Shown here: piece after piece, positions 40,195 through 58,546 of the stretch
How positions within the stretch are numbered: the stretch's first letter is position 1
Layout: each line of letters opens with the position of its first letter
Origin: Oscillatoriophycideae cyanobacterium NC_groundwater_1537_Pr4_S-0.65um_50_18
GTDB taxonomy: Bacteria; Cyanobacteriota; Cyanobacteriia; Elainellales; Elainellaceae
Assembly: GCA_016208305.1 (NCBI GenBank)
Contig: JACQYI010000084.1
Span: 1-64,000, forward strand
Length of the DNA: 64,000 nucleotides
Direction of reading: 5' to 3'
Made by a program: the position numbers and the translations under genes
The notes under the pieces: generated by a model
What the model was told of the DNA's origin: nothing
The model's input: only the letters and a program-made list of their open reading frames with translations
Databases searched by the model: none

Positions 40195-43100
40195 ATGTCG
40201 ATTCCAGAAATTGATTTTTCCCAAGCGATCGATGCAGATGCTCAACTCCAACAAGAGCTTAGCAGCATGTTCGCTGTTGATACACAAAGCTATTTGCAAC
40301 GTTATAGTCAAATTGCCGAAAATCTTCAGGTGTCGGCTTGGCGAGCCGATATTCAAGAACTTTATCGGTGTGTTCACACAATTAAAGGTGGAGCCGTAAC
40401 CGTTGGAGCTGAGGCCGCTCTGCAAGTTGCCTCAGCCTTAGAAGATGTGCTGTCTGATCTGCGTTATTTAGAACCTGCTCCTCAGTTCGCCGACACCCAT
40501 TTAAGTCGGTTGCTGCTGGAGTGTGGAGAGTTGCTGACAGTGGCTCTAGACTTTCAATCTCTCCAAGATATTGCCCCCCTCCTGAGCCGCATTCAAAAGC
40601 TGCATCAAGAAATTCGAGAACATTACCTACCGCAGTGGAATCAGGCTAAACACCTCCAGCAAGAGTTTGCTGAACAAGGCTTTGATCTGATTGTCTTGGA
40701 GTTAGAAATCGCGCTTGAGCAATTGCCCGATCAAGGGCAGGTTTCCGAACCCATACTCAAAATCGCCCAAAATACCCTAGAGCAGCTTCAGCAAATTGGG
40801 CAGGAGCTACAGTTTGATGCCACCTGGACAAATCTGCTGCATCAAGCCCAAGAACTGTTTGTTCATCCTATTAATGCGATTTGGCGATCGCAATGGCTGC
40901 GCTTATTTCAGGTTCTTAAAGCCTATGCTAAACAGGGAAATGAGCCGATCGCGTTTGAGTTTGAAAGTTTTGACGGTTTTGAGCTAGAGGCTGTTCATCT
41001 AGAAGCGATTTCCTCAGAAGCGATTTCTTTGGATACTCCCCATCTGGAGGCTGTTCCTTTAGATTCTGTTCCTTTAGAGGCTGCTCATCTGGAGGTTACT
41101 CATCTAGATTATCCTCTACTAGACCCGCAATTAGAGCAGCAAATTCATGCTGAAGCCTTCTTTGATGCACTTAGTGAAGCAGAGGAAAAATCAGTCCCTG
41201 GAATTGCAGACTGGTTAGATACCCTCGCGCCCCTCGAAGAATTATCGTTCTTTGATCTGGCAGCGCCTGTAGATTCGGCAGCACCTGTGGATCTGGCAGC
41301 ACCTGTGGATCTGGCAGCGCCCGTGGATCTGTCTATGCCTGTAACTCTGGCCGTACCCTCAGAGCTGACGACACCTGACTCAACCAACCCGCCCTTTCTT
41401 AGTTCGAGCAAACCTAACTCAGCTAAGCCAGCGAGTGAAACGCTAGAGCGGGTGCAGATTCCTGTAGCGCTAGAAAAGCTGGATCAATCTGCTCAATCGT
41501 TGGTGGAAACGCTACTTTCGCTACAAACTGCCCAAGGCTATTATCAAACCTTACAAGGTCAAATTACCCAACTCGTTGGCTTGGCTCAAGAAGGTGCCCA
41601 ATACATTACCCATCTGCGGCAAATTCAGGATGATTATGCGCTGCTCGATCAAATGAGAGATCCGACGCAGGTTCAAGGGCCTACGCCTGAGCGCTATCGT
41701 CAGGGCTACTCCATTATTAACCGCTTGCTAGAAACTAGCCTGCGTTTGTCTGAGATTGGAGCAGAATCAGGTAAAACGTCTCAGCAAGTCGCCGCATCTT
41801 TTCAGCAAATCGATCGCAATGCCGCCAAGCTACGGACGACGATCGAAGAAAGCCGATTGGTGTCATTCCAAAACTTGAGTTTTCGAGCCAAAGCGATTTT
41901 GCGAGAGCTAACGACGCGCTATGGGAAACCGGCTCAACTCTTGGTAGAAGGGGAGCATATAGAACTAGATGTGAGTATCGCCAGAGCTTTAGAGCCAGCC
42001 CTCCTTCACTTAATTCGGAATGCCTATGATCACGGGTTGGAATCCCCAGCCGATCGCGTTGCCCAAGGTAAACCTGCTCAGGGAACGCTCACGCTATCGC
42101 TGCGAAGACGGGGAAATTCCTTCCAGCTGCAAATTCGAGATGATGGTTATGGAATTGATGCCACAACAGTACAAGCGAGAGCGCAAGCCTTGGGGCTGCC
42201 CCTAACGCAAACCCAAACCGCTGCTGATTTACTAGCCGTCATTTGTCAACCTGGTTTTAGCTCTCAAACACAAGTCAGTGAAATCTCAGGGCGCGGCATT
42301 GGCATGGATGTTGTGGCGGCACAGGTGACTCATCTCAAGGGACAATTAGAGATTCAAACTGCCCTGGGTACGGGAACCACTTTTCAACTCAAGTTTCCAG
42401 TGCCGCGCTTGTTAGTTCCTTGCGTCTTACTGCAATCTGGCAACCAAGTTTTTGCTATTCCCAATGATGACATTAAAACCATCAGCCTGTTTAGCAGCTT
42501 GGAGCCGAGCCAGAATGCCGATCAGACCCGATGGCAGGTAGAGGGCGAAACGGAATCTACGCCAATTTTGGATACGCTGCAATATTGGCAGCCTCAGTCT
42601 CAGAACCGGGCGATCGCCAATACTGCCGTTTGCCTCTATATTTCGACAACCACCCAGGCCACGACAGCCTCTCCGCAAGGGCTATGGTTACTGGCTGACG
42701 AACTCTTAGAACAATCTGAGTTAATTATCAATCCTTTACCTACACCGCTGGTGGCTCCGCATGGCTTGATCGGAGTCAGCCTTCAGAAAGACGGCTGTTT
42801 GATTCCGGTGCTTGAGGCTCTCCCTGTGGTAGAGCATCTGTTGTCGCCGCCTTCTGTGCTGTCAAAGTCGGAAAATCTAGAAGCCATAACATCTCGTGAT
42901 ACTGCGCCAACGCTGCTCATTGTCGATGACGCAGCCTTAATGCGCCGCCGCCTAGAGGCCAGCCTCAATGCCCACGGCTATATTACCCATGCTTGTGTTG
43001 ATGGACAAGAAGCCTGGAATTGGTTGCAAACACATCCCCACCCTAACCTGATCATTACCGACATCGAAATGCCCAATATGGACGGTTTTACACTCATCGA

Positions 43101-43275
43101 TCGCTGTCGCAGTCAAGGCATTTCCGTTCCTATATTAGTGGTTTCTTCTCGTTTATCTGAGGAGTGGTCTGATGAAACGAGCCGATTAGGAGCCACAGAT
43201 TATTTGACAAAAGGCTTTTCAACGGTCGAGCTAATTAAGAAGGTGGATTCGTTGCTCAACTTATCAAAAGCATAG
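40195..43275 (+). CDS. CheA-REC hybrid histidine kinase (PixL/PilL type)
   Basis: A 1026-residue protein. The HPt domain has phosphoacceptor H61 in CVHTIKGGAV. Residues about 260-410 are a low-complexity linker with two coding repeats: degenerate LEA(V/I)xLE-type pentamers, then the PVDLAA hexamers encoded at 41258-41345. The dimerisation and ATPase domains follow (FRAKAILRELTTRYGKPAQ, HLIRNAYDHGLESP, DDGYGID, GRGIGMDVV), then a CheW-like domain and a C-terminal receiver with D956 (ITDIEMPNMDG). It phosphorylates the CheY and PatA-type regulators of this operon. It ends 14 bp from the convergent end of the kinase gene of the kai operon. Confidence 0.95.
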   Translation: MSIPEIDFSQAIDADAQLQQELSSMFAVDTQSYLQRYSQIAENLQVSAWRADIQELYRCVHTIKGGAVTVGAEAALQVASALEDVLSDLRYLEPAPQFADTHLSRLLLECGELLTVALDFQSLQDIAPLLSRIQKLHQEIREHYLPQWNQAKHLQQEFAEQGFDLIVLELEIALEQLPDQGQVSEPILKIAQNTLEQLQQIGQELQFDATWTNLLHQAQELFVHPINAIWRSQWLRLFQVLKAYAKQGNEPIAFEFESFDGFELEAVHLEAISSEAISLDTPHLEAVPLDSVPLEAAHLEVTHLDYPLLDPQLEQQIHAEAFFDALSEAEEKSVPGIADWLDTLAPLEELSFFDLAAPVDSAAPVDLAAPVDLAAPVDLSMPVTLAVPSELTTPDSTNPPFLSSSKPNSAKPASETLERVQIPVALEKLDQSAQSLVETLLSLQTAQGYYQTLQGQITQLVGLAQEGAQYITHLRQIQDDYALLDQMRDPTQVQGPTPERYRQGYSIINRLLETSLRLSEIGAESGKTSQQVAASFQQIDRNAAKLRTTIEESRLVSFQNLSFRAKAILRELTTRYGKPAQLLVEGEHIELDVSIARALEPALLHLIRNAYDHGLESPADRVAQGKPAQGTLTLSLRRRGNSFQLQIRDDGYGIDATTVQARAQALGLPLTQTQTAADLLAVICQPGFSSQTQVSEISGRGIGMDVVAAQVTHLKGQLEIQTALGTGTTFQLKFPVPRLLVPCVLLQSGNQVFAIPNDDIKTISLFSSLEPSQNADQTRWQVEGETESTPILDTLQYWQPQSQNRAIANTAVCLYISTTTQATTASPQGLWLLADELLEQSELIINPLPTPLVAPHGLIGVSLQKDGCLIPVLEALPVVEHLLSPPSVLSKSENLEAITSRDTAPTLLIVDDAALMRRRLEASLNAHGYITHACVDGQEAWNWLQTHPHPNLIITDIEMPNMDGFTLIDRCRSQGISVPILVVSSRLSEEWSDETSRLGATDYLTKGFSTVELIKKVDSLLNLSKA
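41258..41345 (+). repeat. 18-bp in-frame coding repeat in CheA linker (PVDLAA)
   Basis: The 18-mer CCTGTGGATCTGGCAGCA recurs about four times with small changes, giving APVDSA-APVDLA-APVDLA-APVDLS. It is a flexible linker whose length could change by slippage without a frameshift. Confidence 0.85.
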
Positions 43276-43289
43276 CTCTTTGCTTCTAG

Positions 43290-44921
43290 TCAGTCCGATA
43301 AGCTCAAGGGCAGTTGTAGAGTAAACGTTGTCCAGCCTTCGTGATGGGTCACTGCGATCGTGCCATGCATATGGCCTATCAACTTTTTAACTAATGCCAA
43401 CCCCAATCCTGTGCCACCATGCTTCCAGGGATCATTGGAAGGAATGCGGTAAAAAGGCTCAAAAAGGTGCGTGAGATGTTCTTCTGAAATTTGGGTTCCT
43501 GAGTTACGGACGATGATCTGAATCGGGAGCCTTGGGGCATCAGGCTCTGCTTGATTCTCTGAGGCAGGGTCTGCTGTCATGGGCTGTTCTTCAATCAGTT
43601 GCGCGATCAACTGGATTTGCTCATGGGCAGGCGTATACTTGCAGGCATTATTGAGCAGTTCTGACACAATGCGAGTCAGTCCAAAAGTATCTGAAATTAA
43701 GGGCGGCAATTCAGGTGAAACAGTGACTTGCAGCGTCTGTTGCTGAGAGACTGCCCGGTCTTGAAAACTCTCGGCTATGTGAGGCAGCCAGTCTTGTAGT
43801 TGAATAGCAGCGGGTTCTAAAGAATAAGCTCCTGCTTCAATCGATCGCATCTCTAATAAATCATTGACCAAGTTGAGTTCCTGATCGCATTCGTCACGCA
43901 AGATAGTGAGATAGCGAGCCACAGGTGGGGCATCAGAAAAACTTTCCATCCTCAAAATACCTTGCTGGTTTAGGACGGTTTCTAACATGCAAATGGCTAG
44001 TTTTATGTTAGACAAGGGCGTCCGTAATTCATGGGAAGTAGTGGCTAAAAAGTCATCCTTCAGGTCGTTAAGCTGCTGGAGTTTTTTGAGCTGAACTTCC
44101 ATCTGCTGGGCACGCTCAAGCGCCTGATTGTGGGCTTCGATCACCCGTCTTGGGGTATCGTCTCGAAAAACCATGACAGCCCCTGTGATGGCTCCTTGGC
44201 CATCTTTTAAGGGAGTCGCACTATCTGCAACAGGAAATGTTTGCCCATTTCTTGTCACTAAGAGCGTCTGCCCATTGAGATAAATTGTGGCGTTTTGTTG
44301 GAGGGCAGAGAGAATGGGATGCTCGACAGGAAGCTGAGTAGATTCGTCAATAAACTGGATGATCTCGGTGCTATTTTGCTCTCTCGCTTCGCTGAGCGGC
44401 CAGCCTGTGAGAGTTTCGGCAACCGGGTTGAGGTACTTAATCTGTAGCTGGGCGTCTACGACAACTACGCCATCGCCCATACCCTGGAGTATCGTGCTGA
44501 GAAAATGTTCTCGTTCATAGCGGCTGAGTGCCGTTTGAATGGCCACATACAGTTCGTTGTCTCGTATGGGTTTAAGGATATAGCCAAAGGGTGAGGTCAG
44601 GGTAGCGCGTTCGACTGTGCCCCGATCGGAATGTCCAGTTAAATAAATCACCGGAATCTCGAACTGATTCCAGATCTGCTCTGCTGCCTGAATGCCATCC
44701 ATCTTGCCCCGCAAGCGAATATCCATCAGAATCAGATTGGGGCGATGTTCGGCTGCTTTCTCGATCGCCAGTTCAGCAGTGTCAACAATCTCTGTAACGG
44801 TGTAACTAAGGGCTTCTAAACTTTCTCGCAAATTCATGGCTAGGATGTATTCATCCTCAACAATCATGATTCGTACAGATTGCAACTCCTGTACCATAGC
44901 TTGAGGTTTTGTGGTCATCAT
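43290..44921 (-). CDS. Hybrid kinase REC-PAS-HisKA-HATPase, last gene of the kai operon
   Basis: A 543-residue soluble protein. The N-terminal receiver has D67 in LMDIRLRGKMDG, a form that points to ANTAR- or RpfG-adjacent receivers. A PAS domain (about 130-255) follows, then HisKA with H297 (TTSHELRTPLSNIK) and HATPase_c (LLNNACKYTP, FEPFYRI, GGTGLGLALVKK). The core is closely related to the kinase at 3017-4741. The start codon overlaps the stop of the multi-PAS kinase by 4 bp (ATGA, 44918-44921), so the two are coupled. An N-terminal receiver on a kinase suggests that the upstream HisKA_2 kinase, or a Kai-linked signal, acts through it. Its 3' end nearly touches the chemosensory operon. Confidence 0.94.
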   Translation of the reverse strand: MMTTKPQAMVQELQSVRIMIVEDEYILAMNLRESLEALSYTVTEIVDTAELAIEKAAEHRPNLILMDIRLRGKMDGIQAAEQIWNQFEIPVIYLTGHSDRGTVERATLTSPFGYILKPIRDNELYVAIQTALSRYEREHFLSTILQGMGDGVVVVDAQLQIKYLNPVAETLTGWPLSEAREQNSTEIIQFIDESTQLPVEHPILSALQQNATIYLNGQTLLVTRNGQTFPVADSATPLKDGQGAITGAVMVFRDDTPRRVIEAHNQALERAQQMEVQLKKLQQLNDLKDDFLATTSHELRTPLSNIKLAICMLETVLNQQGILRMESFSDAPPVARYLTILRDECDQELNLVNDLLEMRSIEAGAYSLEPAAIQLQDWLPHIAESFQDRAVSQQQTLQVTVSPELPPLISDTFGLTRIVSELLNNACKYTPAHEQIQLIAQLIEEQPMTADPASENQAEPDAPRLPIQIIVRNSGTQISEEHLTHLFEPFYRIPSNDPWKHGGTGLGLALVKKLIGHMHGTIAVTHHEGWTTFTLQLPLSLSD

Positions 44922-47746
44922 AAATTGAGTTGGCTAAACGTGAGTGTGAATTCAGTCCCTTGCTGACTTTTGATCTCGATTGTGGCACCAATCTGCTTTG
45001 CTAAACCTTGTACCAACGTTAACCCCAGAGTTTTGGTTGTTTGAATGTCAAAGTTTTGGGGGAGTCCAATACCATTATCTTGAATCACTAAGGTCGATCG
45101 CTCCTGTCCTGGCGCTTCAGAAGTCTCGCTGGATTGAGAAAACCGGACTCGAATCTCACCCTTGCGATTACCCGGAAAAGCATGCTTTAGCGCATTAGAA
45201 ACGAGTTCGTTGATGATTAAACCACAGGGAATGACTGTTTCAATATCTAAATGCCCATTTTCAACCTCTACAATGAGCTTGATCTGGTTTGCACTCGTGT
45301 TGTAAGAGTCAAACAGGTAAATGGTTAAATCCTGAATGTATTGAGTGCAGTCAATCTGGGCAAGGTCTTTAGAGCGATAGAGCTTTTCATGGACTAGGGC
45401 GATCGAGGCAATCCGGTTTTGGCTATCCTGCAAAATAACGGTGGCTTGCGGGTCATGCGTCCGTCGAATTTGCATTTGGAGCAGGCTGCTGACAATCCCC
45501 AGATTGTTTTTGACCCGATGATGAATTTCTTTAAGGAGCACCTCTTTTTCTCTAAGGGAAGCGGCGATATGTTCTTCGGTTTGCTTGCGATCGCTCGCAT
45601 CTCTGTGGGTTCCGATCATCCGCAAAGGACGCCCCTGCTGATCTCTAGCCACAACCTTTCCATAGTCAGCCACCCATTTCCAGCTATCGTCTTTTGTGCG
45701 CAGACGATAATCAAACTCATAGCGTACTGAGCTATCTTTCAAATGGTTTGACAGCAGATGGCTGACCCAGATCATATCTTCTGGGTGAACCAACTGATAC
45801 CAGGTGCTGACGGATTGAGGTAATTCTTCGGCTGCATAGCCCAACATTTGAAAATACTGAGGACTGTAATAAATTTCATTGGTAGAAATGTCCCAGTCCC
45901 AGATCCCATCTCCTGAAGCCTCTAGCGCCAACTGCAAGCGTTCTTCACTGTTGCGTAAGGCTTGTTCTGCCTGTTTGAGTTCAGTAATGTCTCGTCCGAC
46001 GGCCTGATATTCCAGCATCTTTCCTTGTGGGTCAAACAGCATCCGGTTAACCCATTGCGTCCAGCGAACTCCACCTTGAGCATCAATCACCCGATTTTCA
46101 ATCATCAGTGTCGGGTTTTCTACATTCATCGTTCGCACCAGTTGTGCGACCCGTTCCCGATCGGCTTCATAGATGACGGGATTATAGCTCTTACCAAGAG
46201 CGTCATCTGGCTCAAAGCCAAAGTAACGACAGTAGGCATCGTTCACAAAGAGAACCGTGCTGTCAGGGGCGTAGCGGATTATTAATTCGGTTTGGTCTTG
46301 AATGATCGCCCGGTAGCGTTCTTCGCTAGTTTGCAAAGCTTCTTCAATCGATTTGCGATCGCTGACATCTAGAATCACCCCTAGCATCCGAATCGGCTCA
46401 CCCGCATTGTCATATATACCGTGTCCTTTGCCAACCAACCAACGCAACGTGCCGTCTGGATGGATCACACGATATTCTGCTTCATAGTTAGTATGCTGAG
46501 CTAATGCTCCTAACAGCGCTTGTTCAACCCACTCTACATCATCTGGATGAATGAGATTGCGCCAACATTGGTACAGATCTGTGGTGGTTTGTGGTTCCAG
46601 CCCCATTAGGTGGAAATGATTGTCATTCCAGCTCACATCATTGGTTTTAACATTCCAATCCCAGGTGCCAATGTGGGTAAAGTCTAAGGTAAGCCTTAGC
46701 TGCTCCTCACGGTGAGCTAAAGTTTCTTCGGCTTGCTTGCGATCGGTTACATCTTCAACAATGTAGGAGAACCTAGGATATCCACTATGATTCGTCGCAA
46801 TAGGACAAACGCTGCCTGATAGCCAAAATTGCTGAGTGCCCAAGGTATGAAGATATTCAAATCGGACAGGCATTTGGGTTTGCTCAGCCTGACGATAATA
46901 AGCGCTCCATTGCTGAATAATCTCTGGCGGTACGCCTAATAGGCTGGCATACTGCTGACGCATGGCTTCTTGCGTGGTGCCAAAAAACTGTGCCGCCGCC
47001 CAATTATCGGAAATGTGCAGAATATCATTGTCATGGAGTTCCACGATGCCCATCGGCATAGCTCCACTGTTGAAGAAGCTGCGGAGAATGGATTCACTTT
47101 GCTGCAACTCAGCATTGCGTAGGCTTAACTCAGAGGTTCTTTCTGCGACACGAGCCTCTAACTGCTCCTTAGTCTGCTCCAGCATTAAACGCTCCATCTT
47201 TTCTGAAGCCAAGGTGCTTTCATGCTGTTTCTGTTCGGTCAAGTCAGTAATGACGACACAATTGACTGAAACATCATTGAGATTAAGCGTGTTGATGGAT
47301 AGATACACAGGAACTTCAGTCGCATTAGAGGCGATGAGAAAGAGTTCCATGACATTGCGATCGCCCTTTGCTGCTGCCTGCATCCGCGCTTGAAACAGAG
47401 GCGTGTCGTTAAGTGAAAGAAACTGATGAAAATGGGAGCCGATGAGCTGCTCTAGCGGCTGTTTCACTAAGGTTGCAAGGCTGCGATTGCAGTATAAAAC
47501 TAACCCTTCGTCAGAAAGAATGACTGCACCTTGCTGCATCTCTTCTACCAACAGGCGATAAGACTGGTCAGCACTTTGGAGGGTAAAAATGCGTGGCCCG
47601 TTTGGGGTCGAAACGACGAGTGCATCCACTTCGCCTTGTTGGATCGATCGCAAGGTTTCTTCGCTAGTCGCTAGGCGATCGCGCAGGGTTTGAATTTCGG
47701 CTAACAGTTCAGCTACAGTTGGCTGGTTCGTTTTCATCTCTTCCAT
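44918..47746 (-). CDS. Multi-PAS sensor kinase of the HisKA_2 (HWE-like) class
   Basis: A 942-residue soluble protein with five PAS/PAC units (about 40-150, 215-330, 335-450, 460-580, 590-715) separated by coiled segments. The C-terminal HisKA_2 domain has H742/H743 in LLKEIHHRVKNNLGIVSSLLQMQ, and the ATPase part has NELVSNALKHAFPG, DNGIGLPQ and LGLTLVQGLAKQ. HisKA_2 kinases usually act on single-domain or hybrid receivers rather than OmpR proteins. It lies 59 bp after the second KaiB-like gene and overlaps the REC-PAS kinase by 4 bp. No haem or flavin ligand was identified in any PAS domain. Confidence 0.93.
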   Translation of the reverse strand: MEEMKTNQPTVAELLAEIQTLRDRLATSEETLRSIQQGEVDALVVSTPNGPRIFTLQSADQSYRLLVEEMQQGAVILSDEGLVLYCNRSLATLVKQPLEQLIGSHFHQFLSLNDTPLFQARMQAAAKGDRNVMELFLIASNATEVPVYLSINTLNLNDVSVNCVVITDLTEQKQHESTLASEKMERLMLEQTKEQLEARVAERTSELSLRNAELQQSESILRSFFNSGAMPMGIVELHDNDILHISDNWAAAQFFGTTQEAMRQQYASLLGVPPEIIQQWSAYYRQAEQTQMPVRFEYLHTLGTQQFWLSGSVCPIATNHSGYPRFSYIVEDVTDRKQAEETLAHREEQLRLTLDFTHIGTWDWNVKTNDVSWNDNHFHLMGLEPQTTTDLYQCWRNLIHPDDVEWVEQALLGALAQHTNYEAEYRVIHPDGTLRWLVGKGHGIYDNAGEPIRMLGVILDVSDRKSIEEALQTSEERYRAIIQDQTELIIRYAPDSTVLFVNDAYCRYFGFEPDDALGKSYNPVIYEADRERVAQLVRTMNVENPTLMIENRVIDAQGGVRWTQWVNRMLFDPQGKMLEYQAVGRDITELKQAEQALRNSEERLQLALEASGDGIWDWDISTNEIYYSPQYFQMLGYAAEELPQSVSTWYQLVHPEDMIWVSHLLSNHLKDSSVRYEFDYRLRTKDDSWKWVADYGKVVARDQQGRPLRMIGTHRDASDRKQTEEHIAASLREKEVLLKEIHHRVKNNLGIVSSLLQMQIRRTHDPQATVILQDSQNRIASIALVHEKLYRSKDLAQIDCTQYIQDLTIYLFDSYNTSANQIKLIVEVENGHLDIETVIPCGLIINELVSNALKHAFPGNRKGEIRVRFSQSSETSEAPGQERSTLVIQDNGIGLPQNFDIQTTKTLGLTLVQGLAKQIGATIEIKSQQGTEFTLTFSQLNL

Positions 47747-47805
47747 TTGTCACTCCTAGAAAAGGCGTTTTATTGGGAGTGAGCGTCTTCACAGCGCCCG
47801 AATCT

Positions 47806-48243
47806 TCATTGTTTAGGAATCAGATCTAAACCCAACAAGACTTTTTCAGTATTAGACAAATCTCCTACAATGCGCCGCAGCGGCAGGGGCAACTGCTTCA
47901 CCAAGGTCGGAATGGCAACCACATTGTCTACATCGAGCTGTGAGGGTGACTGGTAAACATCAATGACTTCTAACTCATACCGTCCCTGCAAATAAGTTTC
48001 ACATAGTGAATTGAGTCGTTCGAGTGCCCGCCGCGATCGTGGTGTTGTTCCAGCAATATATAACCGCAAGCAGTAGTGTTGCTGATCGTTAAGGGCGATC
48101 GCTTGCTCAAAGCTGGCCGTCATAGCATCGCTTTCATCCTGCGATAGGGTCTCTTCTTCGGGTAGGCTGTTTATCTCTTCTTGCGGCACATCATTCACCA
48201 TACGGATTAATTTCACAATTGCATCAATTCCTTTACTCCTCAT
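47806..48243 (-). CDS. KaiB-like protein with acidic N-terminal extension (second copy)
   Basis: A 145-residue protein. Residues about 55-145 are a KaiB domain ([67 protein letters not shown]). The first 50 residues are an acidic, Glu/Asp-rich tail not found in classical KaiB. An internal Met at 48201 would shorten it by 14 residues. The ATG at 48243 overlaps the last codons of the first KaiB gene. KaiB folds switch to a thioredoxin-like form to bind the KaiC CI ring; whether this copy binds KaiC or a kinase is open. The surface motifs are divergent enough from the first copy to suggest separate roles. Confidence 0.88.
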
Positions 48244-48550
48244 CTAGCGGTCTCAGATCAAGCCCCACCAGCACTTTCTCCCGATTAGATAAGTCCCCAA
48301 TAATTTGACGTAGCGGGGGAGGCAGTCGCCTGACCAGCGTAGGGATTGCCAGAATTTGGTCTTGCTTGGCCAACTCTGGGTGCTGCAATAAATCAACAAT
48401 TTCGATGTGGTATTGACCTTGCAAGTGTTCTTCACACAGCTTTTTCAGGTTGGCAAAGGCCGTCACCGATTTTGGGGTTTGTCCGGCAACGTACAGGCGC
48501 AGCTGCCATTTCTCATCTGTTGCTGAATTGGGTTGGTTCGGCTGATTCAT
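48233..48550 (-). CDS. kaiB: KaiB-like protein (first copy)
   Basis: About 105 residues if started at the Met at 48550 ([28 protein letters not shown]); longer starts at 48595 or 48703 run into or past the KaiC stop at 48609 and look non-conserved. The KaiB core is complete: [63 protein letters not shown]. It is close in length and sequence to authentic KaiB and likely binds the KaiC-like ring of this operon. It lies 58 bp downstream of the KaiC-like gene and overlaps the second KaiB-like gene by 11 bp. Confidence 0.9.
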
Positions 48551-48608
48551 GATAAGAGTTTCTGGTGTTCCAACAGAATAAGCTATGGGACTCATTAAAG
48601 TGGAGAGA

Positions 48609-50321
48609 TTAGGGTTGATCGGCCTGACGGAGCTGGGCGATCGTCTCTCTATCCTGAAGAACCCCTGCTTCATACAAACTTTCTTCCTGAAGTAGATGCT
48701 CAATTTCGACGTTTTCTGCCTCTATTTGGATCTGAAGGGCTGCAAGCTGAGCCTGTGTGATTTGCCGCTGTTGTTCAAGCTCTCGTCGTCGGGCTGCTGC
48801 CTGCTGCTGCCGCTGTAACCGTGCCTGCTCATCGGCTGCCTCCTGAATCGTTCGGGCTGTGCCAGTCAATACTTGATTTTGACCTAAATAGACATCGATC
48901 AGGTCAACGCCTTGGCTGGTCAGTCGAAATTCTCGCACTTGGTTAGAATGGCTCATGCCACGAGATTTGAGCAATTGCAGCAGACGGTTACGTTCGCCGT
49001 TGCCTTCAATAGTGCGTACCTCTAGCCAGGTATCCATCAGCGATGAGATGCCGATCTCGGTATGTTCTAGCGGCATTCCGGCTGCAATGAGATTGGTCAT
49101 GAGGACGGTAATCTGTTGTGCTTTGAGGGAGTCAATCAGGCGCGCAAAGAAAGATTTTGTTTGCAATAGGCTCCCCGATGAGGTTAGGTTGCTAATCGGA
49201 TCAATCACGACAGCCGTAGGTTGAAACGTGTTGAGCCAGCGATGAATCTGTACCAGATGCATTTCTAAGCTTTGAATCGTTGGCCGCAGGGCTTGAATAT
49301 GGAGCAAGTCTTGCTGGATGTAGGGGGCTAAGTCTAGCCCGACCGATCGCATATTTCGCAGAATCTGCTGGGGTGCTTCTTCAAAAGCGATATAGAGACA
49401 TCTTTCGCCTCGCTGACAGGTGGAAGCAGCAAAATGAGCAGCGATCGTGCTTTTGCCTGTGCCCGCCATCCCCGTTACCAAAATGCTGCTGCCGCGAAAG
49501 AACCCTTGCCCACCCAGCATGGTGTCTAGACGCGGAATGCCTGATGGGATGCGATCGATCGAAATCTCATGGTTCAGCCCGACTGAGGTAATGGGTAAAA
49601 CGGAAAGCCCGTCTTTGTCAATCAGGAAGGGATATTCGTTGCTGCCATGATGTGACCCGCGATATTTGACAATTTGCAGCCGTCGGGTCGAGAGTTCATC
49701 ATGAGTGCGTTGGTCTAAGCGAATTACACAATCGGAGACGTATTCTTCCAAGCCTTGGCGGGTCAGACTGCTCTCACCTCGCTCTCCAGTAATAATGGCT
49801 GTCACGCCTTTTGTTTTGAGCCAGCGAAACAGCCGCCGCAACTCTGCTCGGACAATGGCAACATTAGATAACCCATAAAACAGCACCTCGATCGTATCTA
49901 GGACAACGCGCTTGGCTCCAATGCTATCGATCGCATTTCCCAGTCGAATGAAGATGCCTTCTAGATCGTACTCACCGGTCTCTTGAATTTCTGTCGGGTC
50001 GATATAGAAACAGTCAATTTCGATCTTTTTTTCAGCGATGAGTTGATTGAGATCCCAACCCAGAGAGGCGACATTTTGGGTTAATTCTTCAACCGTTTCT
50101 TCAAACGAGATGAATACACCAGGTTCACCGTATTGGGTTGCGCCCCGCACTAAAAACTCCATTCCCAGCAGCGTTTTACCACAGCCAGCAGATCCACAAA
50201 TTAGGGTGGGTCGTCCTTGAGGCAGGCCGCCTTCGGTAATTTCATCAAGTCCTTGAATACCAGTGGGACACTTGATGAGTTGAGTGGGGTGAAATTGCAT
50301 TGAACTATCAAGTTGAATCAT
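48609..50321 (-). CDS. kaiC: KaiC-like double RecA/ATPase with C-terminal coiled coil
   Basis: A 570-residue protein with CI and CII RecA-like domains. CI has Walker A GSAGCGKT (residues 43-50) and catalytic Glu pair FEET. CII has Walker A GMAGTGKS (Lys 290) and FEEA. The CII phosphorylation loop reads GISSLMDTW, so the two residues matching Ser431-Thr432 of the standard clock KaiC are Ser426 and Ser427. The tail beyond about residue 495 is a long Gln/Arg/Glu-rich coiled coil ([19 protein letters not shown] and onward) where KaiC has a short A-loop tail. No kaiA is seen. Two KaiB-like genes follow, then two kinases. This fits the KaiC2-type signalling branch more than the core clock; that branch assignment is inference. 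Confidence 0.93.
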
Positions 50322-51213: not shown

Positions 51214-51286
51214 ATTTGAAACTTTGAGTTCGGATAAAGGTGAGAGCGGTACGATCCAGCGGAATATTAAAGGAGGTTGAATTGCT

Positions 51287-51676: not shown

Positions 51677-52051
51677 TTAGCAGCCCATGACTTGACGCAT
51701 TTTCTGGACGAGATCAACAGGTTGGAACGGCTTCGGAATTACGAGCACAATGCCCAGCTTAGGAAAGAGCTGCAAGTCTGGAAGATAGCTGTTTGCGGTG
51801 AGCAACACGACCGGAATAGCCTGTACGCTTGGATCAACACGAAGCTGTTTTAGAAAGGTAAACCCATCCATCTCTGGCATCATCACATCCAGAATGATGG
51901 CATCGGGTGGCTCAGCTTTGATTTGGCGCAAGGCTTCCCATCCTGAAGCAGCGGTTAAAACCTTCCAGCCTCCTAGCCTTTGCAGGCAGAGCGACACGAC
52001 TTCCCGGATGTTGGCTTCATCATCCACAACTAGAATTCGCTTGACGGTCAT
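51677..52051 (-). CDS. Single-domain response regulator
   Basis: About 124 residues from the Met at 52051 (MTVKRILVVDDE); frames from 52102 or 52060 add a stretch without receiver features. D10/D11 form the acidic pocket, D55 is the phosphoacceptor (ILDVMMPEMDG), and IPKPF carries the Lys. The switch region reads VVLLTANSY. It lies 262 bp beyond the neighbouring receiver (52314) with palindromes in between, so it may be expressed less than the other two genes of this unit. The large kinase at 52742 is the likely phosphodonor. Confidence 0.9.
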   Translation of the reverse strand: MTVKRILVVDDEANIREVVSLCLQRLGGWKVLTAASGWEALRQIKAEPPDAIILDVMMPEMDGFTFLKQLRVDPSVQAIPVVLLTANSYLPDLQLFPKLGIVLVIPKPFQPVDLVQKMRQVMGC

Positions 52052-52222
52052 TGCAACCATCCCCGATTTGTTGTTTCGCAAAATCTGATTTGACCAGAGC
52101 ATTTTGGCCCACTTGACCCTTGCATGAAGAATTGAACTTGCTACGATTTCAGATTAAGCACAAAAGATGGAGAAATTCTGGAGAAGCTGTCTGAATCCTT
52201 AAATAGATCTTAAGAATTTAAT

Positions 52223-52269: not shown

Positions 52270-52313
52270 AGGTTTTATGGCGCGCACTACAAAACCTAAT
52301 TTGCGTCCTGAGA

Positions 52314-52697
52314 CTAGAGCCACCCCAACAATTGACTGATTTCTTTGGCAAGCTGAACCGGATCAAAAGGCTTGATAATTAACCCTGCTGCGCCGAGTTG
52401 CCTGTATTCTGCCTGCTCTACAGGCTGCACTTTGGCAGTGAGAAAAATAACTGGAATGGCTTGTGTTTGCGGGTTTGCCTGAAGTTGTTGAAACGTTTCT
52501 ATCCCGTCCATTCCTGGCATAGAGATATCTAGCAGAATGGCATCTGGCTGTTCTGCTAGGGCAGTTTGGATAGCTTCTACTCCTGAGGCCGCAGTCATTG
52601 CATCCCATTTGGCAAGCTTCACCAGACACACCCGAACCACTTCGCGGATGCGATCTTCGTCATCTACGATCAAGATGCGTCTTGTTGTCATGCCCAT
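52314..52697 (-). CDS. Single-domain response regulator
   Basis: A 127-residue receiver (125 from the second Met). D12/D13 form the acidic pocket and D57 the phosphoacceptor in LLDISMPGMDG. IFLTAK is the switch Thr segment and IIKPF the Lys motif. It directly follows the large PAS/GAF kinase (stop at 52742) by 44 bp on the same strand, so it is probably its cognate receiver. It is similar to the receiver at 551-934 in the region PDAILLD through PGMDG and in QAIPVIFLTAK/IIPVILLTAK. Confidence 0.92.
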   Translation of the reverse strand: MGMTTRRILIVDDEDRIREVVRVCLVKLAKWDAMTAASGVEAIQTALAEQPDAILLDISMPGMDGIETFQQLQANPQTQAIPVIFLTAKVQPVEQAEYRQLGAAGLIIKPFDPVQLAKEISQLLGWL

Positions 52698-52741: not shown

Positions 52742-55700
52742 TTACTTCGTTTGTAGGGGCAAAGAGAAGTAAAAAGTACTGCCCTGCCCCCAAGTGCTTT
52801 CGACCCAGATTTGACCATCGTGCTGCTGCACGATCGACTGACAGATAGCCAAGCCTAACCCCGTACCGCCCTGATCACGGGAGTCAGATGCATCGACCTG
52901 TTGAAAACGACCAAATATACTTTCCAGTTTATCGGTGGGGATGCCTCGCCCTTGATCTTGGATAGAGAAGAGGATGTGGGGTGCTAGAGAGAGGTTTGAG
53001 GAGCCAGTCGCGCTTCTAGAAGGTTTTGTCGAAGTTCGGTTTTCCTGAGTAGCAGTTTGAAGAACTGCTTCTGCCGTCCCTTGCCCCTGCTTTGTTTCAA
53101 CCTGGAGATAAACAGTACTTCCAGGCGGAGAGAACTTAATTGCGTTGCTAAGGAGATTGGTGAGCGTTTGGATAATGCGATCGGGATCAACCCAGATTTG
53201 TAAGGATAAAGGCTGTACGACCAACTGCACCTCTGCTTCTTGAGCGCTGCTTTGCATCACCTCGATCGATCGCTGCATCAGGTCAGCAGCATCGCACCAT
53301 TTGCGAACCAAGGAAACTTTGCCGCTTTCTAGCTTCTCTAGATCCAACACATCGTTCACCAGCCGCACCAATCTTTCGGTGTCGATCGCCGCAATATCAA
53401 TCATGCGCTTCATTGCATCGGGTTCATCGTTCATTACACCCGTTGCCAATAAACCCAATGATCCCCGAATAGAGGTTAGCGGCGTTCGCAGCTCGTGGCT
53501 AACGATCGAGATAAACTCATTCTTCATTTTCTCAACTTTTTGTCGCTCAGTAATATCCTCGCCAATGCTAACGATGCCCGTACCGCTACCGCTAGCATCT
53601 TGCAGCATCGTATTATTCCAGGCAATGAACCGTTCTTCACCCGCTTTGGTCAGAATGGTGTTTTCATAGTAGGGATGAGCATTTTGGGCTAAGACTTCTG
53701 TGAAAACAGCTCGGACAGAGGCTTGACTAGAGGCCGGCACAAATGTTTTAAACCAGCTCTTGCCCATCACTTCTGAGTCAGTGTACCCAGTCAGCTTTAA
53801 GAAGAAAGGATTGACGTAGTTGATATTGCCTCTCTGATCTAAACCTACGACGATGAGCTGCACGTTATCTAACAGCGATCGCCAACGTCGCTCGGCTTCT
53901 CGGATCACCGCTGTTGCCTGCTGACGGTCTTGTAACTCAACCTGCAGTTGACTGTAAAGTTCGGCTTGCTGAAGGGCGATCGAGAGTTGGCTGGCAATCT
54001 GTTGCAGCAACTCCACTTCCCAGTCTTGCCACTGGCGCGCTGTTGCATTTTGATAAATGGCCAGCAAACCCCATAGCGTAGTGCCAGAGAAAAGAGGGGC
54101 AACGGCATAGGCTTTGGCCTGAAACTGTTCTAGCAAATGAATGTGACAGGGATGTAGGCCAGCCGCATAGATATCTGAAATCACAAAAGTCTCGTGATTT
54201 TGGAAACGGCCGCCCTTCGTGTCTTGCAGATGCGTATCTTCATAGACTTTCTGGAGGTTGGTATCGACAAGCTGCACCCAACCCGAACTAACTGACTCCA
54301 CAATAAAATCGCCGCTCCAATCGGGCTGAAAACAGTAAACCGCAGCGCGATCGACCTCTAAGGTCTGTCGGACTTCTTCTACAGCGGTATTGAGAATGCC
54401 ATTCAGGTCTAGAGATTGCCGAATGGCCTGGGTCACGTTCCAACGCAATTGTTCCTGCATAGTCTGCTGTTGTAAGGCCGCTTCTGCGCGTTTGCGATCG
54501 CTAATGTCCAACCAAGTTCCTAGCACCCGCAACGGCTGTCCAGCTTCGTCATAGGTTCCTTGTGCCCGCACCATGAGCCAATGCACAGAGCCATCCGGAT
54601 GAATGACTCGATACTCGATCGCATATTCAGTTTGGGTGGCAATCGCCTGCTGAAATTGTTGTTCCACCCAAGCGATGTCATCAGGATGGACGTACTGACG
54701 CCATAGCCCGTAGCTAGCCTCGGCTGTACCCGGAGAAAGACCCAGAAGAGCGAAGGATGTGTCATCCCAGATCGCTTTGCCCGTTGCTACATGCAACTCC
54801 CAAGCGCCAATCTGGGTTAAGTCTAGGGCTAAGCGGCGGCGTTCTTCACTTTCGCGGAGAGCCGCTTCAGTTCTCGCTTGCTCTTTGAGCGCAATGAGCA
54901 GGCGATCGTTAATGGCGGTTAGCTCTGCTGTTCGTTCTACAACCCGCTGCTCTAACTCAGCATTGATTGACTGTAAGGCAAGCTCAGCCTGCTTGCGCTG
55001 AGTAATGTCCTTAAAAAGAATGCCTACATTTGGGTTTGTAGGTTGAAAGCGGAAGGCATAGACATCAAACCAACGGTTCAGTGGCTCAGCGCCATTTTCA
55101 ACTCGGATCGGTTCACCCGTTAGAGCAACGTTCCCAAAAACCTCAAACCAATGGTCTTCAAGATTGGGCATTAATTGACGGGCTGTTTGACCGACTGCCG
55201 CTCTAAGCCCTGATTGTTGCTCAAAAGCTGGGTTCGTTTCTAGAAAACGATAATCGAAAGCCACATTGTTTTCATCAAACAGCATTTCAACCCTACAAAA
55301 GCCTTCATCAATCGATTCAAAGAGCGTTCGGTAACGCTGTTCCGACTGGCGCAGGGCTTCTTCGACTTGTTTGCGCTCTAGCAATTCGGTCTGTACCTGT
55401 TCAAACAATGCTGCCTGCTGAAGCACCACGCTTACTTGAGCCGCAAGCTGCCGGAGTAGATCAATCTCTGAATCTTGCCATTGACGAGGAGCAGTGCAAT
55501 GATGAGCTACTAGCAAGCCCCACAAAGCGTCATTTTTCAGGATAGGAACAACTAGATTTGCCCTCACCTGAAATTGCGCGAGAAACTCCACATGACAGGG
55601 GCTAATGTCTGCACTGTAAATATCGGCTTTTGCTGTGACCAACCCCTGCTCAAACGGTTCCACATAGGTATTGCTAATACAGGGGTCATAAATATTGGCG

Positions 55701-56335
55701 GGTAAGATGGCCAGCGTCTCATTCACAACCGACTCAACCGTAACCTTTCCTCCCCACTCAGGCGAAAACTCAAAGAGAATCACGCGATCGACTTGCAGGA
55801 ACTGCCGTACCTCATCGACTGTGGTTTGCAGGATGTCCTCTAAATTGAGCGATCGGCGAATGCGCTGAGTCATTGCCATCACGAGGCGCTGTTGTTCAAG
55901 CTGCTGTTGAAGAAATAATTGCGTTTGCTTGCGATCGTCGATCGCCATAATCGTGCCGATCATCCGAAGGGGCTGTCCCGCTTCGTCATACAGAGCACTG
56001 CCTCGCCCTTCTACCCAATGAACACTCCCATCTGCCCTAATAATACGAAACTCATGGTGGTAGCTCGTATGGTTTTGAAGCGCCTGTTGAACAGCCTGAT
56101 TCAAGATAGAGCGATCGTCTGGATGAATGTGGCGATCAAAGGTTTCGTATCTCCCATCAAAACTGTGAGCAGGCAAACCAAATAGCTGTTCATGCTCTCG
56201 GTTCCAGCGAAGTTGCCCCGTTACCAAATCCCAATCCCAGATGCCCACCTGAACGGATGCCAACGCCAATTGAACCATTTCTCGGTCTTGAGCATAGTCG
56301 TCAATATTCAAAAGGGTGTGTGACTTCTCGACCAT
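52742..56335 (-). CDS. Large soluble multi-PAS/GAF histidine kinase
   Basis: About 1197 residues from the Met at 56335 (MVEKSHTLLNIDDYAQDREM). Although the frame is open to 56491, that part covers a palindrome (56384-56437) and looks non-coding. The order is PAS (15-140), GAF (160-320), PAS (325-440), coiled coil, PAS_3 (500-625), GAF (640-800), PAS (810-935), HisKA with H947 (IVSHELRTPLTSIRG) and HATPase_c. Two repeated PAS-GAF blocks suggest internal duplication (each GAF has a QVDRVILFEFSPEWGG/EVDRAAVYCFQPDWSG strand). The GAF domains keep a PCH motif (SPCHVEF, HPCHIHL), the Cys-His pair that binds bilin in phytochromes and CBCRs, so they may be chromophore-binding. The C-terminus is paralogous to the fragment at 129-389. 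Two receivers follow it. Confidence 0.92.
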   Translation of the reverse strand: MVEKSHTLLNIDDYAQDREMVQLALASVQVGIWDWDLVTGQLRWNREHEQLFGLPAHSFDGRYETFDRHIHPDDRSILNQAVQQALQNHTSYHHEFRIIRADGSVHWVEGRGSALYDEAGQPLRMIGTIMAIDDRKQTQLFLQQQLEQQRLVMAMTQRIRRSLNLEDILQTTVDEVRQFLQVDRVILFEFSPEWGGKVTVESVVNETLAILPANIYDPCISNTYVEPFEQGLVTAKADIYSADISPCHVEFLAQFQVRANLVVPILKNDALWGLLVAHHCTAPRQWQDSEIDLLRQLAAQVSVVLQQAALFEQVQTELLERKQVEEALRQSEQRYRTLFESIDEGFCRVEMLFDENNVAFDYRFLETNPAFEQQSGLRAAVGQTARQLMPNLEDHWFEVFGNVALTGEPIRVENGAEPLNRWFDVYAFRFQPTNPNVGILFKDITQRKQAELALQSINAELEQRVVERTAELTAINDRLLIALKEQARTEAALRESEERRRLALDLTQIGAWELHVATGKAIWDDTSFALLGLSPGTAEASYGLWRQYVHPDDIAWVEQQFQQAIATQTEYAIEYRVIHPDGSVHWLMVRAQGTYDEAGQPLRVLGTWLDISDRKRAEAALQQQTMQEQLRWNVTQAIRQSLDLNGILNTAVEEVRQTLEVDRAAVYCFQPDWSGDFIVESVSSGWVQLVDTNLQKVYEDTHLQDTKGGRFQNHETFVISDIYAAGLHPCHIHLLEQFQAKAYAVAPLFSGTTLWGLLAIYQNATARQWQDWEVELLQQIASQLSIALQQAELYSQLQVELQDRQQATAVIREAERRWRSLLDNVQLIVVGLDQRGNINYVNPFFLKLTGYTDSEVMGKSWFKTFVPASSQASVRAVFTEVLAQNAHPYYENTILTKAGEERFIAWNNTMLQDASGSGTGIVSIGEDITERQKVEKMKNEFISIVSHELRTPLTSIRGSLGLLATGVMNDEPDAMKRMIDIAAIDTERLVRLVNDVLDLEKLESGKVSLVRKWCDAADLMQRSIEVMQSSAQEAEVQLVVQPLSLQIWVDPDRIIQTLTNLLSNAIKFSPPGSTVYLQVETKQGQGTAEAVLQTATQENRTSTKPSRSATGSSNLSLAPHILFSIQDQGRGIPTDKLESIFGRFQQVDASDSRDQGGTGLGLAICQSIVQQHDGQIWVESTWGQGSTFYFSLPLQTK

Positions 56336-56383
56336 GATGATTGCCTTCTTCAGGAATTGATTCTTGGGGATGCCGATCTTAGC

Positions 56384-56437
56384 TATAAAATTTATTTTGG
56401 AAGATGTGCGGGGTGTACCTTCCAAAATAAATTTCAT
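56384..56437. repeat. GATGAAATTT-family palindrome with 16-bp perfect stem
   Basis: AAATTTATTTTGGAAG (56388-56403) is the exact inverse of 56419-56434 around a 15-base loop (ATGTGCGGGGTGTAC). The right end (AAATAAATTTCAT) matches 12317-12358 and the outer bases recall 7685-7737. It lies directly upstream of the large kinase start and could be part of its leader. Confidence 0.85.
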
Positions 56438-56522
56438 AACCAGATTCAGCAATGCCGATTTTTGATTAAGTTGTAAGTGTTTGCCCGCCATCTAAAGTCA
56501 GCAAGATAAAGCCGTAAAGCCG

Positions 56523-56600
56523 CTTCCCCTCTCCTACTCTCCCTTACTCCTACCCTCCCACTCTCTCACCTACTCTCCCACCCTCTCTCCCACCCTCCTA
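56523..56600. repeat. Polypyrimidine tract (CCCTCTCC/CTCCCACC-type units)
   Basis: A run of TCTCC, ACCCT and CCCAC units with almost no purines extends from the gap into the last codons of the minus-strand regulator, encoding RRRVGERVGE. A related tract lies at 390-500. It may form H-DNA or vary in length. Confidence 0.7.
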
Positions 56601-58465
56601 CGCTGCCGTCCTTCCAGGCGATTAAGAACACGGGCAACTAACTCCGGCTCCAAAATCGGCTTGCGAATATAGTCATCGCCTCCCGCAGCAAATGCCTGAA
56701 CAATCATGTCTACCTCCTGATGTGCCGTTAAAAATAGAATCGGTAAATTGCCCCATTGCAGGTCATTTCTAACGACCTCGCAAAGTTCAATTCCATTGAA
56801 ACCTGGCATTTCGATGTCTAAGAGCAATAGATCTGGAGCGGTATGGTTCAACACTTCCCAAAAACGACCCGGATCTAGCAAAGTTGTCACCTTCAATCCC
56901 CAGGGTGATAACACCACCGACAATCGATGCAAAATACTAGGATCATCATCTACCACCATCACCTTGGCTGTAGGTGGCTGTTGCCGCTGTAGCGCTTCCT
57001 GTATCGTCTGAAAAATTTTCTCCACTGACATCGGCTTCTGAAGCAAGGTCTGTGCCCCTGACCGGGCAACTGTGAGGCGATCGCTCAGATTATCTCGTCC
57101 TGTAAAGACCAGCCTAGGCATCTGGGGATACTGCTGCTTTAAGGTGGCTAGCCAATTGAGACCCTCGTCATAATGGTCTGCAAAGGTCAGATCCAGCAAA
57201 AGTACATCGGGGCGGTCGCGATCGAGAAGACATTGCGCCGCTTCTGGATTGGGCGCATGGGTGAGATGGAACGATTGTCTCGCTGCTTCTGCCTGCAACC
57301 GTTCAATGAAGGCCATATCACCATCTACGACTAGCACATGCGGTCTGGGGGCGATCGGCGTTGAGGAGGAAGTCACCCTCTGAGGTTTTTGGCTTGTCTC
57401 TTGTCGCAAAGCCGCTACCCACTCAGCCATCTGTTGAATTTTGGCTGCTTCCAAAGGATAAGAATGCAGTAAGTCCGAAATTTGTCTCGCCAGCACCGAT
57501 CCTTGCGGGAAGCCATATACGCCCAACGACCCCACTAATTTATGAATGGTTTGTTTGGCCTCCTGGTGCAAGGCTGGTGTCAAGCTGCCCTCCTGTAACG
57601 CGTTAACCACCTGATCCATGAGGTCAAGTTGGGTATTAAAAGACTCTTTAAACCGATCCCAAAGGTCAAGCATAACGGCATCAGCCGCTTCTTGCGAAAA
57701 GTCTGGTGCTGCATCTAGAAACACGGCCTCTGCGTTGCCCTCTGTGTTGCCCTCTGTGTTGCCCTCTGTGTTGCCCTCTGCGTTTTCCTCTGCTTTAAGG
57801 CGACGCAGACGATACCCAAAGCCATACATTGTCTCGATTAAGTCGTGGCTGGCTCCGGCGGCCTTGAGCTTCTGCCGAATTGATTTAATATGGCTACTAA
57901 TCGCACTTTCGGTCGGAGTTTCCTCTAATTCCCAGAGGCGATCGATTATCGCAGAACGACTGAAGATTTTGTGGGGGTTCAATAGCAGCAACTCTAAGAT
58001 GCCGTACTCCTTCGGCGTTAGGTGCAATCGCTGCTCTCCATAGCAAATCTCATGGGTCAAGTCATTAAGCTGCAACTTTTCCCAGGTCACAATCACAGCA
58101 GCCGTTGTGCTACCTCGCCGACACAGCGCTCGAATCCGGGCTAGAAGTTCTGGGATGTGGAAAGGCTTGACCATGTAATCGTCTGCCCCTGCATCCAATC
58201 CTAGAACGCGATCGCTCATCTGATCTCTAGCCGTCAACAGAAGAATGGGCGTTTGACACTCCTGAGCCCGCAGCCGCTTACAAACGCTGATGCCATCAAT
58301 CTCAGGAATGCCAATATCTAGCACCAAAAGATCGTAGTCAATCTGCTCAGCTAAGGCCAACGCCGATCGACCCTCTTCTGCAACCTCAACCGTATGATAA
58401 GGGCTAAGCGCTTTCTCAATGAGGAGGCGAATAGCTGGATCATCCTCTACCAGTAGAATTTTCAT
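56570..58465 (-). CDS. OmpR-type regulator fused to HPt and two receivers
   Basis: About 631 residues from the Met at 58465 (MKILLVEDD); 11 extra residues are possible. An N-terminal receiver with D50 (LVLDIGIPEIDG) and an OmpR-type winged helix (about 130-225; HLTPKEYGILELLLLN ... GFGYRLRR) are followed by an in-frame EGNT repeat. An HPt-like domain has H308 in TIHKLVGSLGVYG. Two further receivers follow, one with the site in LLLDLTF and one in LLLDIEMPGFNG. So one chain holds three receivers, a phosphotransfer His and a DNA-binding domain, able to work as a phosphorelay hub. It lies upstream of and on the same strand as the large kinase gene, which may supply phosphate. Confidence 0.92.
   Translation of the reverse strand: MKILLVEDDPAIRLLIEKALSPYHTVEVAEEGRSALALAEQIDYDLLVLDIGIPEIDGISVCKRLRAQECQTPILLLTARDQMSDRVLGLDAGADDYMVKPFHIPELLARIRALCRRGSTTAAVIVTWEKLQLNDLTHEICYGEQRLHLTPKEYGILELLLLNPHKIFSRSAIIDRLWELEETPTESAISSHIKSIRQKLKAAGASHDLIETMYGFGYRLRRLKAEENAEGNTEGNTEGNTEGNAEAVFLDAAPDFSQEAADAVMLDLWDRFKESFNTQLDLMDQVVNALQEGSLTPALHQEAKQTIHKLVGSLGVYGFPQGSVLARQISDLLHSYPLEAAKIQQMAEWVAALRQETSQKPQRVTSSSTPIAPRPHVLVVDGDMAFIERLQAEAARQSFHLTHAPNPEAAQCLLDRDRPDVLLLDLTFADHYDEGLNWLATLKQQYPQMPRLVFTGRDNLSDRLTVARSGAQTLLQKPMSVEKIFQTIQEALQRQQPPTAKVMVVDDDPSILHRLSVVLSPWGLKVTTLLDPGRFWEVLNHTAPDLLLLDIEMPGFNGIELCEVVRNDLQWGNLPILFLTAHQEVDMIVQAFAAGGDDYIRKPILEPELVARVLNRLEGRQRRRVGERVGE
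57734..57781 (-). repeat. 12-bp coding tandem repeat (EGNT) in the OmpR-HPt regulator
   Basis: GTTGCCCTCTGT repeats four times on the plus strand, flanked by decayed copies, giving EGNT and NAEG units in the linker between the DNA-binding domain and the HPt. The 12-bp length keeps frame. The linker length therefore may vary between strains. Confidence 0.9.
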
Positions 58466-58546
58466 GTGGACACCAGAGATCTTCAATAACGTTAGCAAGG
58501 TCTATGGTGTATCTCAATGTGAAAGGTTGTGCCTTGCCGGACCCCG

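Follow-up and report, generated by a model that had tools for sequence, protein, structure and literature searches.

How does a KaiC timer that has no KaiA beside it pass on its state, and to what? This question is raised by an operon in the cyanobacterium Oscillatoriophycideae NC_groundwater_1537_Pr4_S-0.65um_50_18, within the 64,000-nucleotide stretch analyzed here (positions 1 to 64,000 of contig JACQYI010000084.1, assembly GCA_016208305.1; termed here the window). On the minus strand, from position 50321 to 43290, it carries kaiC, two kaiB genes (termed here kaiB-a and kaiB-b) and two histidine kinase genes (HK1 and HK2), in this order. Sequence comparison gives good support to its membership in the KaiC2-KaiB systems. 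The reading that is favored on balance is that it encodes a KaiC2-KaiB timer--either an hourglass or a reader of the cellular energy state--which would be separate from the core clock and would have a dedicated signaling output through the first 200 residues of HK1 (termed here the N-module).

All five genes were found present, as a preliminary description of this DNA had them (one strand, gaps of at most 59 bp and a 4-bp overlap between the kinases): kaiC at 48609..50321, kaiB-a at 48233..48550, kaiB-b at 47806..48201, HK1 at 44918..47746 and HK2 at 43290..44921, with successive intergenic distances of 58, 31 (or -11), 59 and -4 bp, such that HK2 starts 4 bp inside the stop of HK1. That description would have been called into question by promoters or terminators separating the Kai genes from the kinases; in a sequence scan, none was seen on the minus strand between the operon genes, the site counts being no higher than in shuffled sequences. 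Within the genes, one promoter-like site in HK1 and two terminator-like sites in HK2 were likewise not above shuffles. Single transcription of the five genes is plausible, and not more than that, because no minus-strand site lies between the genes, yet the counts are within those of the shuffles. The kaiC-kaiB-kaiB-kinase order recurs in distant phyla and so goes beyond chance.

The gene order alone is nevertheless ordinary, since kaiC-kaiB-kinase linkage has already been published (papers are cited here by PMC number, and statements about them concern the portions of their text that were available). In the Ramlibacter genome paper it is the 'orange' context: almost all non-cyanobacterial kaiC-kaiB clusters have a histidine kinase or a GGDEF/EAL protein immediately 3' of kaiC/kaiB, cyanobacteria being named as the exception, and the available text describes neither two KaiB clades nor a common N-terminal module (PMC3164672). 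A PAS kinase or histidine kinase lies beside kaiBC in Rhodobacter sphaeroides and R. rubrum (PMC5520375, PMC10931921), and kinase genes occur among the kaiBC clusters of a Nitrospirota genome (PMC10278575). Rhodopseudomonas palustris has kaiC, kaiB and a PAS histidine kinase behind a single predicted promoter; unlike the window, it is described as having one KaiB and one kinase, and no shared front-end module appears in the description available (PMC4794148). Thiodictyon syntrophicum Cad16 has a 'kaiCBB' arrangement (a diguanylate cyclase adjoins kaiC and two kaiBs), which the available text mentions in one sentence and without analysis of the two KaiBs (PMC5944118). In the open-licence literature, searched by titles and abstract starts, no report was found of KaiC2 operons with KaiBs of two clades, or of a common N-terminal module. 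What is worth following here is thus the fixed pair of KaiBs and the shared front-end module, not the order of the genes.

By sequence, the KaiC protein is of the KaiC2 type, with a tail and a Ser-Ser phosphosite. It has 570 aa, two PF06745 stretches and a P-loop in each (GSAGCGKT at 43 and GMAGTGKS at 284). It passes the model NF006799 with 727 bits (cut-off 408) and fails the core-clock model TIGR02655 with 335 bits (546 needed); its best solved relative is the Rhodobacter KaiC (8dba, 660 bits), with 1u9i and 1tf7 at about 318. Its C-terminal tail of about 75 aa aligns to the Rhodobacter tail as far as residue 565, and its phosphosite in the CII domain is Ser426-Ser427. Such a tail is mainly found in the kaiC2 subgroup (PMC10076222), and absence of the R-linker in CI is a further trait of KaiC2-KaiB systems (PMC5520375). 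Another criterion for these systems is a coiled-coil extension, some 50 residues long, at the C terminus; here the extension is seen from sequence alone. Related loci were collected into a set of 97, namely 80 named loci (the best 80 of at least 580 pattern-scan matches, and close KaiC2 relatives only), 16 cyanobacterial KaiC2 loci and the window; individual loci are numbered L and genomes G below. In a FastTree phylogeny of 112 KaiC rows, from which KaiC3 and the split kaiC of L138 were left out and in which KaiC1 was not assessed as a clade, the KaiC2 loci and the Rhodobacter KaiC form a group of 97 rows (support 0.968), within which the 16 cyanobacterial KaiC2 rows group together (16/16, support 1.0). 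The phosphosite is Ser-Ser in 91 of the 97 KaiC2-side rows, as against Ser-Thr in 15 of 15 KaiC1 rows. The preliminary description had proposed a non-core KaiC2/B2-type system rather than the circadian oscillator, to be checked by clade models and a tree, and both place this KaiC on the KaiC2 side and not with KaiC1, with no kaiA adjacent. In L138 (genome G346), kaiC2 is seemingly split in two pieces with other open reading frames (ORFs) between them; downstream of it are a pair of KaiBs and a kinase that bears the N-module.

The same genome has a complete kaiA-kaiB-kaiC set together on contig 47, no kaiA being found anywhere else in it, and a 402-aa KaiB-domain kinase, probably SasA, on contig 73. 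The claim that KaiA is lacking therefore holds for the operon and not for the cell, and the KaiC2-KaiB set is additional to, and separate from, a normal core circadian clock. As in the core KaiABC system with SasA and CikA, KaiB and KaiC would here steer histidine kinases; unlike that system, the operon has no KaiA, and Pfam finds no KaiB-like (SasA) domain (PF07689) on HK1 or HK2.

Two KaiB-like proteins had been noted, and both are present; on sequence grounds, however, they are distinct paralogues in a fixed order, not repeats. KaiB-a has 105 aa from a probable ATG at 48550. For KaiB-b, the probable start at 48201 gives 131 aa (145 aa if the whole open frame, which begins at 48243, is counted), and the protein has an N-terminal extension bearing a Phe-Glu motif; both starts were chosen with the near relative L123 as a guide. 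In a tree of 87 columns and 175 rows, whose bootstrap was not settled and from which L043 was omitted as too short, the 72 loci with two KaiBs have clade a first and clade b second without exception (72/72). The clade b cluster (support 88/100, on a long branch) holds these 72 second KaiBs, 10 single ones and 2 further ones, and none of the 72 first KaiBs. L014 and L019, with three and four KaiBs, were kept out of the 72 pairs; both also finish with KaiB-b. At one of the clade marker positions, Tyr is found in 68 of 72 b rows versus Leu in 56 of 72 a rows, and the KaiB-b of the window has DVYQ in place of the D(I/L)YQQP of most clade b members. The hidden Markov models (HMMs) for a and b were scored on their own training rows, and L049 and L050 were assigned to KaiB-b by the tree, although their HMM scores lean slightly towards a; KaiBs were located with a model that was seeded from KaiB-b and that finds KaiB-a too. 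The Rhodobacter KaiB falls on the a side of the tree and is the best-scoring solved KaiB for KaiB-a, of which the AlphaFold2 (AF2) model has the ground-state KaiB fold (TMt 0.76-0.90 to solved ground-state KaiB, for the 17 best rows). Among the solved KaiBs listed, the KaiC2 partner that was placed in the tree is thus of the a side. A stretch of 1.6 kb or more behind kaiC was available in 93 loci; a and b are both present in 72 of them, b only in 10, a only in 10 and neither in 1, so that the sampled KaiC2 timers mostly have two non-equivalent KaiBs.

What follows the KaiBs is also conserved, in part. The preliminary description had linked the Kai genes to two sensor kinases; the link to the first kinase is conserved, the class of that kinase is not, and by sequence the conserved part is the first 180 to 200 or so residues. 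This N-module (47147..47746, minus strand; HK1 residues 1-200) consists of a coil with a GEVDALVV-like motif followed by a PAS domain, and recurs behind KaiC2-KaiB genes. Of the 93 loci that leave 900 bp or more for it, 81 have a match directly behind the last KaiB; in the remaining 12 it is found further down in some (L024, L030, L048) and is absent from others. The module is present in 80 of 82 loci that bear KaiB-b versus 4 of 11 that lack it. The proteins that carry it are varied. Over 85 module genes (the best match per locus in 85 of the 97 loci, several being cut by contig ends or frame breaks), the domains attached are HATPase_c (53), HisKA (46), HisKA_2 (5), GGDEF (12), EAL (12) and HD (4), and in six Bacteroidota loci the module stands nearly alone, in open frames of 235-245 aa (L036, L053, L061, L071, L077, L088). 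In one metagenome-assembled genome (L091:2591-5329), KaiB-b is fused in frame to an N-module-GGDEF-EAL protein, giving a 913-residue open frame; its close relative L079 has the same parts as two separate genes.

Genome surveys show that the module surely tracks KaiC2-KaiB systems, as judged by profile matches (at most 8 candidates per genome were scored in both surveys). In 386 genomes of the cyanobacterial phylum, the module occurs in 16 and KaiC2 (60-79% identical to that of the window) in 16, 13 of them shared (Fisher p 6e-19; the window's own genome is included in both counts of 16). KaiC2 without the module is found in G076, G093 and G193, and the module without KaiC2 in G157, G255 (behind KaiB-b) and G376. 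The modules of G027, G157 and G255, and the second module of G262, have no adjoining kaiC2, yet lie directly behind KaiB-b; and, for L160 (G027) and L124, kaiC2 has no KaiB in its stretch, a cluster of KaiB-a, KaiB-b and an N-module kinase being situated some 200 kb from it in that genome. The whole genomes behind the named loci have the module in 47 of 50 cases, the three that lack it (L029, L073, L075) all having KaiB-a only; L044, with KaiB-a only as well, has a weaker pair of module matches. Judged by contig and coordinates, six copies fall outside the fetched loci. Three are parts of additional clusters of kaiC2, KaiB-a, KaiB-b and module; of the others, one stands at the edge of its contig, one comes after a KaiC tail and one is unlinked. 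At 3219-3897 of L166 (G388), an N-module lies directly behind a short KaiC-tail-like match; no KaiB separates the two, and the cluster may have decayed or been rebuilt.

A set of 398 Pseudomonadota genomes, chosen around G424, has the module in 11, with KaiC2-KaiB in front in 10. Three carriers were known beforehand (G406, G407, G424); seven new ones have a KaiC2-type KaiC (718-981 bits) and KaiB in front (G464, G509, G576, G578, G682, G704, G768), the single KaiB of G509 being nearly tied between its a and b scores, and G541 has a partial module with KaiB and KaiC fragments. Of the 34 Pseudomonadota with a KaiB match, 24 lack the module; one stretch from each of these (some genomes having further KaiB places) yielded no KaiC2-type KaiC, the KaiC there being cut or split or, where whole, of another type (442-536 bits).

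HK1 and HK2 form a pair that is unusual among KaiC2-KaiB systems. HK1 (942 aa) has five PAS domains, as counted with a purpose-built PAS model, followed by HisKA_2 (PF07568, 97.9 bits against a gathering score of 22.3) and HATPase_c; it retains HHRVKNNL (at 742) and the N- and G-box motifs. HK2 (543 aa; REC-PAS-HisKA-HATPase_c) retains Asp67 in its receiver, the Lys of GYILKP, His297 in HisKA and the ATPase motifs. The active-site motifs of both kinases are thus present. The PhyK-PhyR general stress response was considered and rejected as a home for this pair, both models being under their cut-offs: the HK2 receiver scores 88.6 of 240 bits against the PhyR-type model (NF006623), and HK1 147.8 of 750 for the PhyK type. 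The preliminary description had also suggested checking the five-gene order in other cyanobacteria, and HK2 proved not to be generally conserved across the 97 loci. Its best matches among the fetched loci are 239-240-aa REC-PAS proteins of Methanoperedens (L015, L017, L031; 35-37% identity), each encoded directly behind a HisKA_2 kinase with a 1-4 bp overlap. HK1 thus probably signals to the HK2 receiver, since the best matches of HK2 stand in just this position. A REC-PAS partner right after a HisKA_2 kinase is found, over the 97 loci, only in the window and these three; in L033 and L068 a REC-PAS protein lies behind a HisKA kinase.

From these parts a mechanism may be proposed. KaiC2 would form a KaiA-independent double ring that autophosphorylates on Ser426/Ser427 when ATP is plentiful; KaiB-a, like the Rhodobacter KaiB, would bind it and promote dephosphorylation. 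One of the KaiBs, at a guess KaiB-b, would relay the KaiC2 state to HK1 through its N-module and so switch the HisKA_2 kinase, which would phosphorylate Asp67 of the HK2 receiver and thereby set HK2. The target of HK2 may be a receiver encoded upstream, that is, RECa, RECb or a REC-wHTH-Hpt-REC-REC protein (see below). In related loci, the same front end would drive other enzymes. Among the nearest known systems is KaiB-KaiC of R. sphaeroides (KaiC_RS; 8dba, 8fwj), an hourglass timer that works without KaiA and is regulated by ATP/ADP (PMC10076222). It is like the window in its tail alignment, its Ser-Ser site and its KaiB, which is the best solved match of KaiB-a, and its operon is reported to include a histidine kinase (PMC5520375); unlike it, the window has two KaiBs followed by two kinases (HisKA_2 and REC-PAS-HisKA).

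A broader proposal, put forward tentatively and with somewhat less than even confidence, is that KaiC2 timers use the same output interface in bacteria and archaea alike, namely a coil-PAS module touched by KaiB, and chiefly by KaiB-b, which evolution has fitted to histidine kinases, to cyclic di-GMP enzymes, to HD proteins or to nothing at all. If this is true, the output of KaiBC-only timers is a plug-in system unlike SasA/CikA, of which the HisKA_2 to REC-PAS-HisKA relay is one version. A module that tracks KaiC2-KaiB across distant genomes, whatever enzyme is attached, names the probable contact of KaiA-free timers, and this contact becomes testable with small purified domains.

Several observations weigh against a dedicated output of this kind, or against KaiB-b as its carrier. 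The module is kept in those 4 of 11 loci without KaiB-b, and in G464 and G768 it lies behind a single, a-scored KaiB, which rules out an absolute KaiB-b/N-module rule. Over 69 loci, partial correlations of distance matrices with the module are 0.23 for KaiB-a, 0.19 for KaiC and 0.06 for KaiB-b, and KaiB-b outranked KaiB-a in only 1.3% of 300 resamplings; nothing therefore singles out KaiB-b, whose role as specific partner is not supported by co-evolution. As to a fold-switched KaiB, the secondary structure of both AF2 models leans towards the ground state, the KaiB-b model being too poor in itself (pLDDT 57). The nearest relative that keeps the operon (L123) has a hybrid HisKA kinase and a REC-GGDEF output in place of the pair seen here. 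The module of G376 and the second copy of G392 are not beside Kai genes, and, because the genome holds several pairs of the type of the upstream kinase HK0 and RECa, their proximity to the operon could be due to chance.

Information could also flow in the reverse direction, the PAS kinases being inputs: HK1, with its five PAS domains, would then sense redox, oxygen or another small signal and reset the KaiC2 timer, much as the R. sphaeroides kinase has been proposed to pass a redox signal to KaiBC (PMC5520375, PMC10931921). This is considered unlikely, though worth keeping in mind: the module is also borne by GGDEF (12/85), EAL (12/85) and HD (4/85) proteins, second-messenger enzymes that would fit an output better, and no domain known to phosphorylate KaiC or KaiB was found in module proteins. 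Nor need KaiC2-KaiB keep time; it might read ATP/ADP and gate the kinases, acting as a switch for stress or energy, much as has been suggested for Legionella and for the KaiC2/KaiB2 of Synechocystis. A stress role is described in Legionella (PMC5520375), and many carriers are, by their record titles, archaea or members of lineages not known as phototrophs, which would suit such a switch. The proteins are, however, of the same type as those of the Rhodobacter hourglass timer (PMC10076222), so that this too is judged quite improbable, even if sequence cannot separate the two. Mere co-location--that is, an N-module that is a general PAS front end and happens to adjoin kaiC2--is disfavored and would come as a considerable surprise. 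The genome does contain numerous other PAS kinases and paralogues of HK0-like pairs, and a few module copies (G376, G392) are unlinked; the module itself, however, is single-copy in the window's genome (at E 1e-10), and, in the 16 of 386 and 11 of 398 genomes that have it, lies nearly always behind KaiB.

Upstream of the operon, after a gap of 454 bp from kaiC, the same strand runs on from 50776 to 58498. It encodes, moving away from kaiC, a 145-aa ORF (50776-51213) between kaiC and the receivers, which matches nothing in Pfam or NCBIfam and has no relative among the fetched loci; the single-domain receivers RECb (51677..52102, minus strand, 141 aa) and RECa (52314..52697, minus strand, 127 aa); the PAS/GAF HisKA kinase HK0 (52742..56491, minus strand, 1249 aa); and the REC-wHTH (Trans_reg_C)-Hpt-REC-REC protein (56570..58498, minus strand, 642 aa), a possible transcriptional output. 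Ten other cyanobacterial loci with KaiC2, KaiB or the module have kinases that share 42-55% identity with the C-terminal part of HK0, and RECa is 49-56% identical to receivers in such loci. The REC-wHTH-Hpt-REC-REC protein has long matches (35-45%, at least 359 aa) in 6 of 21 loci (L125, L127, L130, L160, L161, L162) and, among the best matches listed, none in the other KaiB-domain places of the genome (L139-L142). Similarity of this kind is only suggestive of an upstream island that is part of the KaiC2 system, because HK0-RECa pairs have paralogues in the genome. HK0 and RECa were rejected as unique orthologues, HK0 ranking third in the genome for the L132 kinase as query (its match came in pieces, which may lower the rank) and RECa fourth for the L125 receiver.

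At the left end of the window (141-1376), another kinase fragment, with 72% identity over 76 aa to that of L132, is followed by two RECa-type receivers. Tandem repeats of 12 bp occur in the gap upstream of kaiC (50703-50757, 4.6 copies) and within the 145-aa ORF (51131-51180, 4.2 copies, read as a repeated MPGQ). On the plus strand, converging on the operon, 34713-43275 encodes two dCache-HAMP-MCP chemoreceptors and a CheA-like Hpt-HATPase-REC hybrid, the end of the CheA-like gene lying 14 bp from that of HK2.

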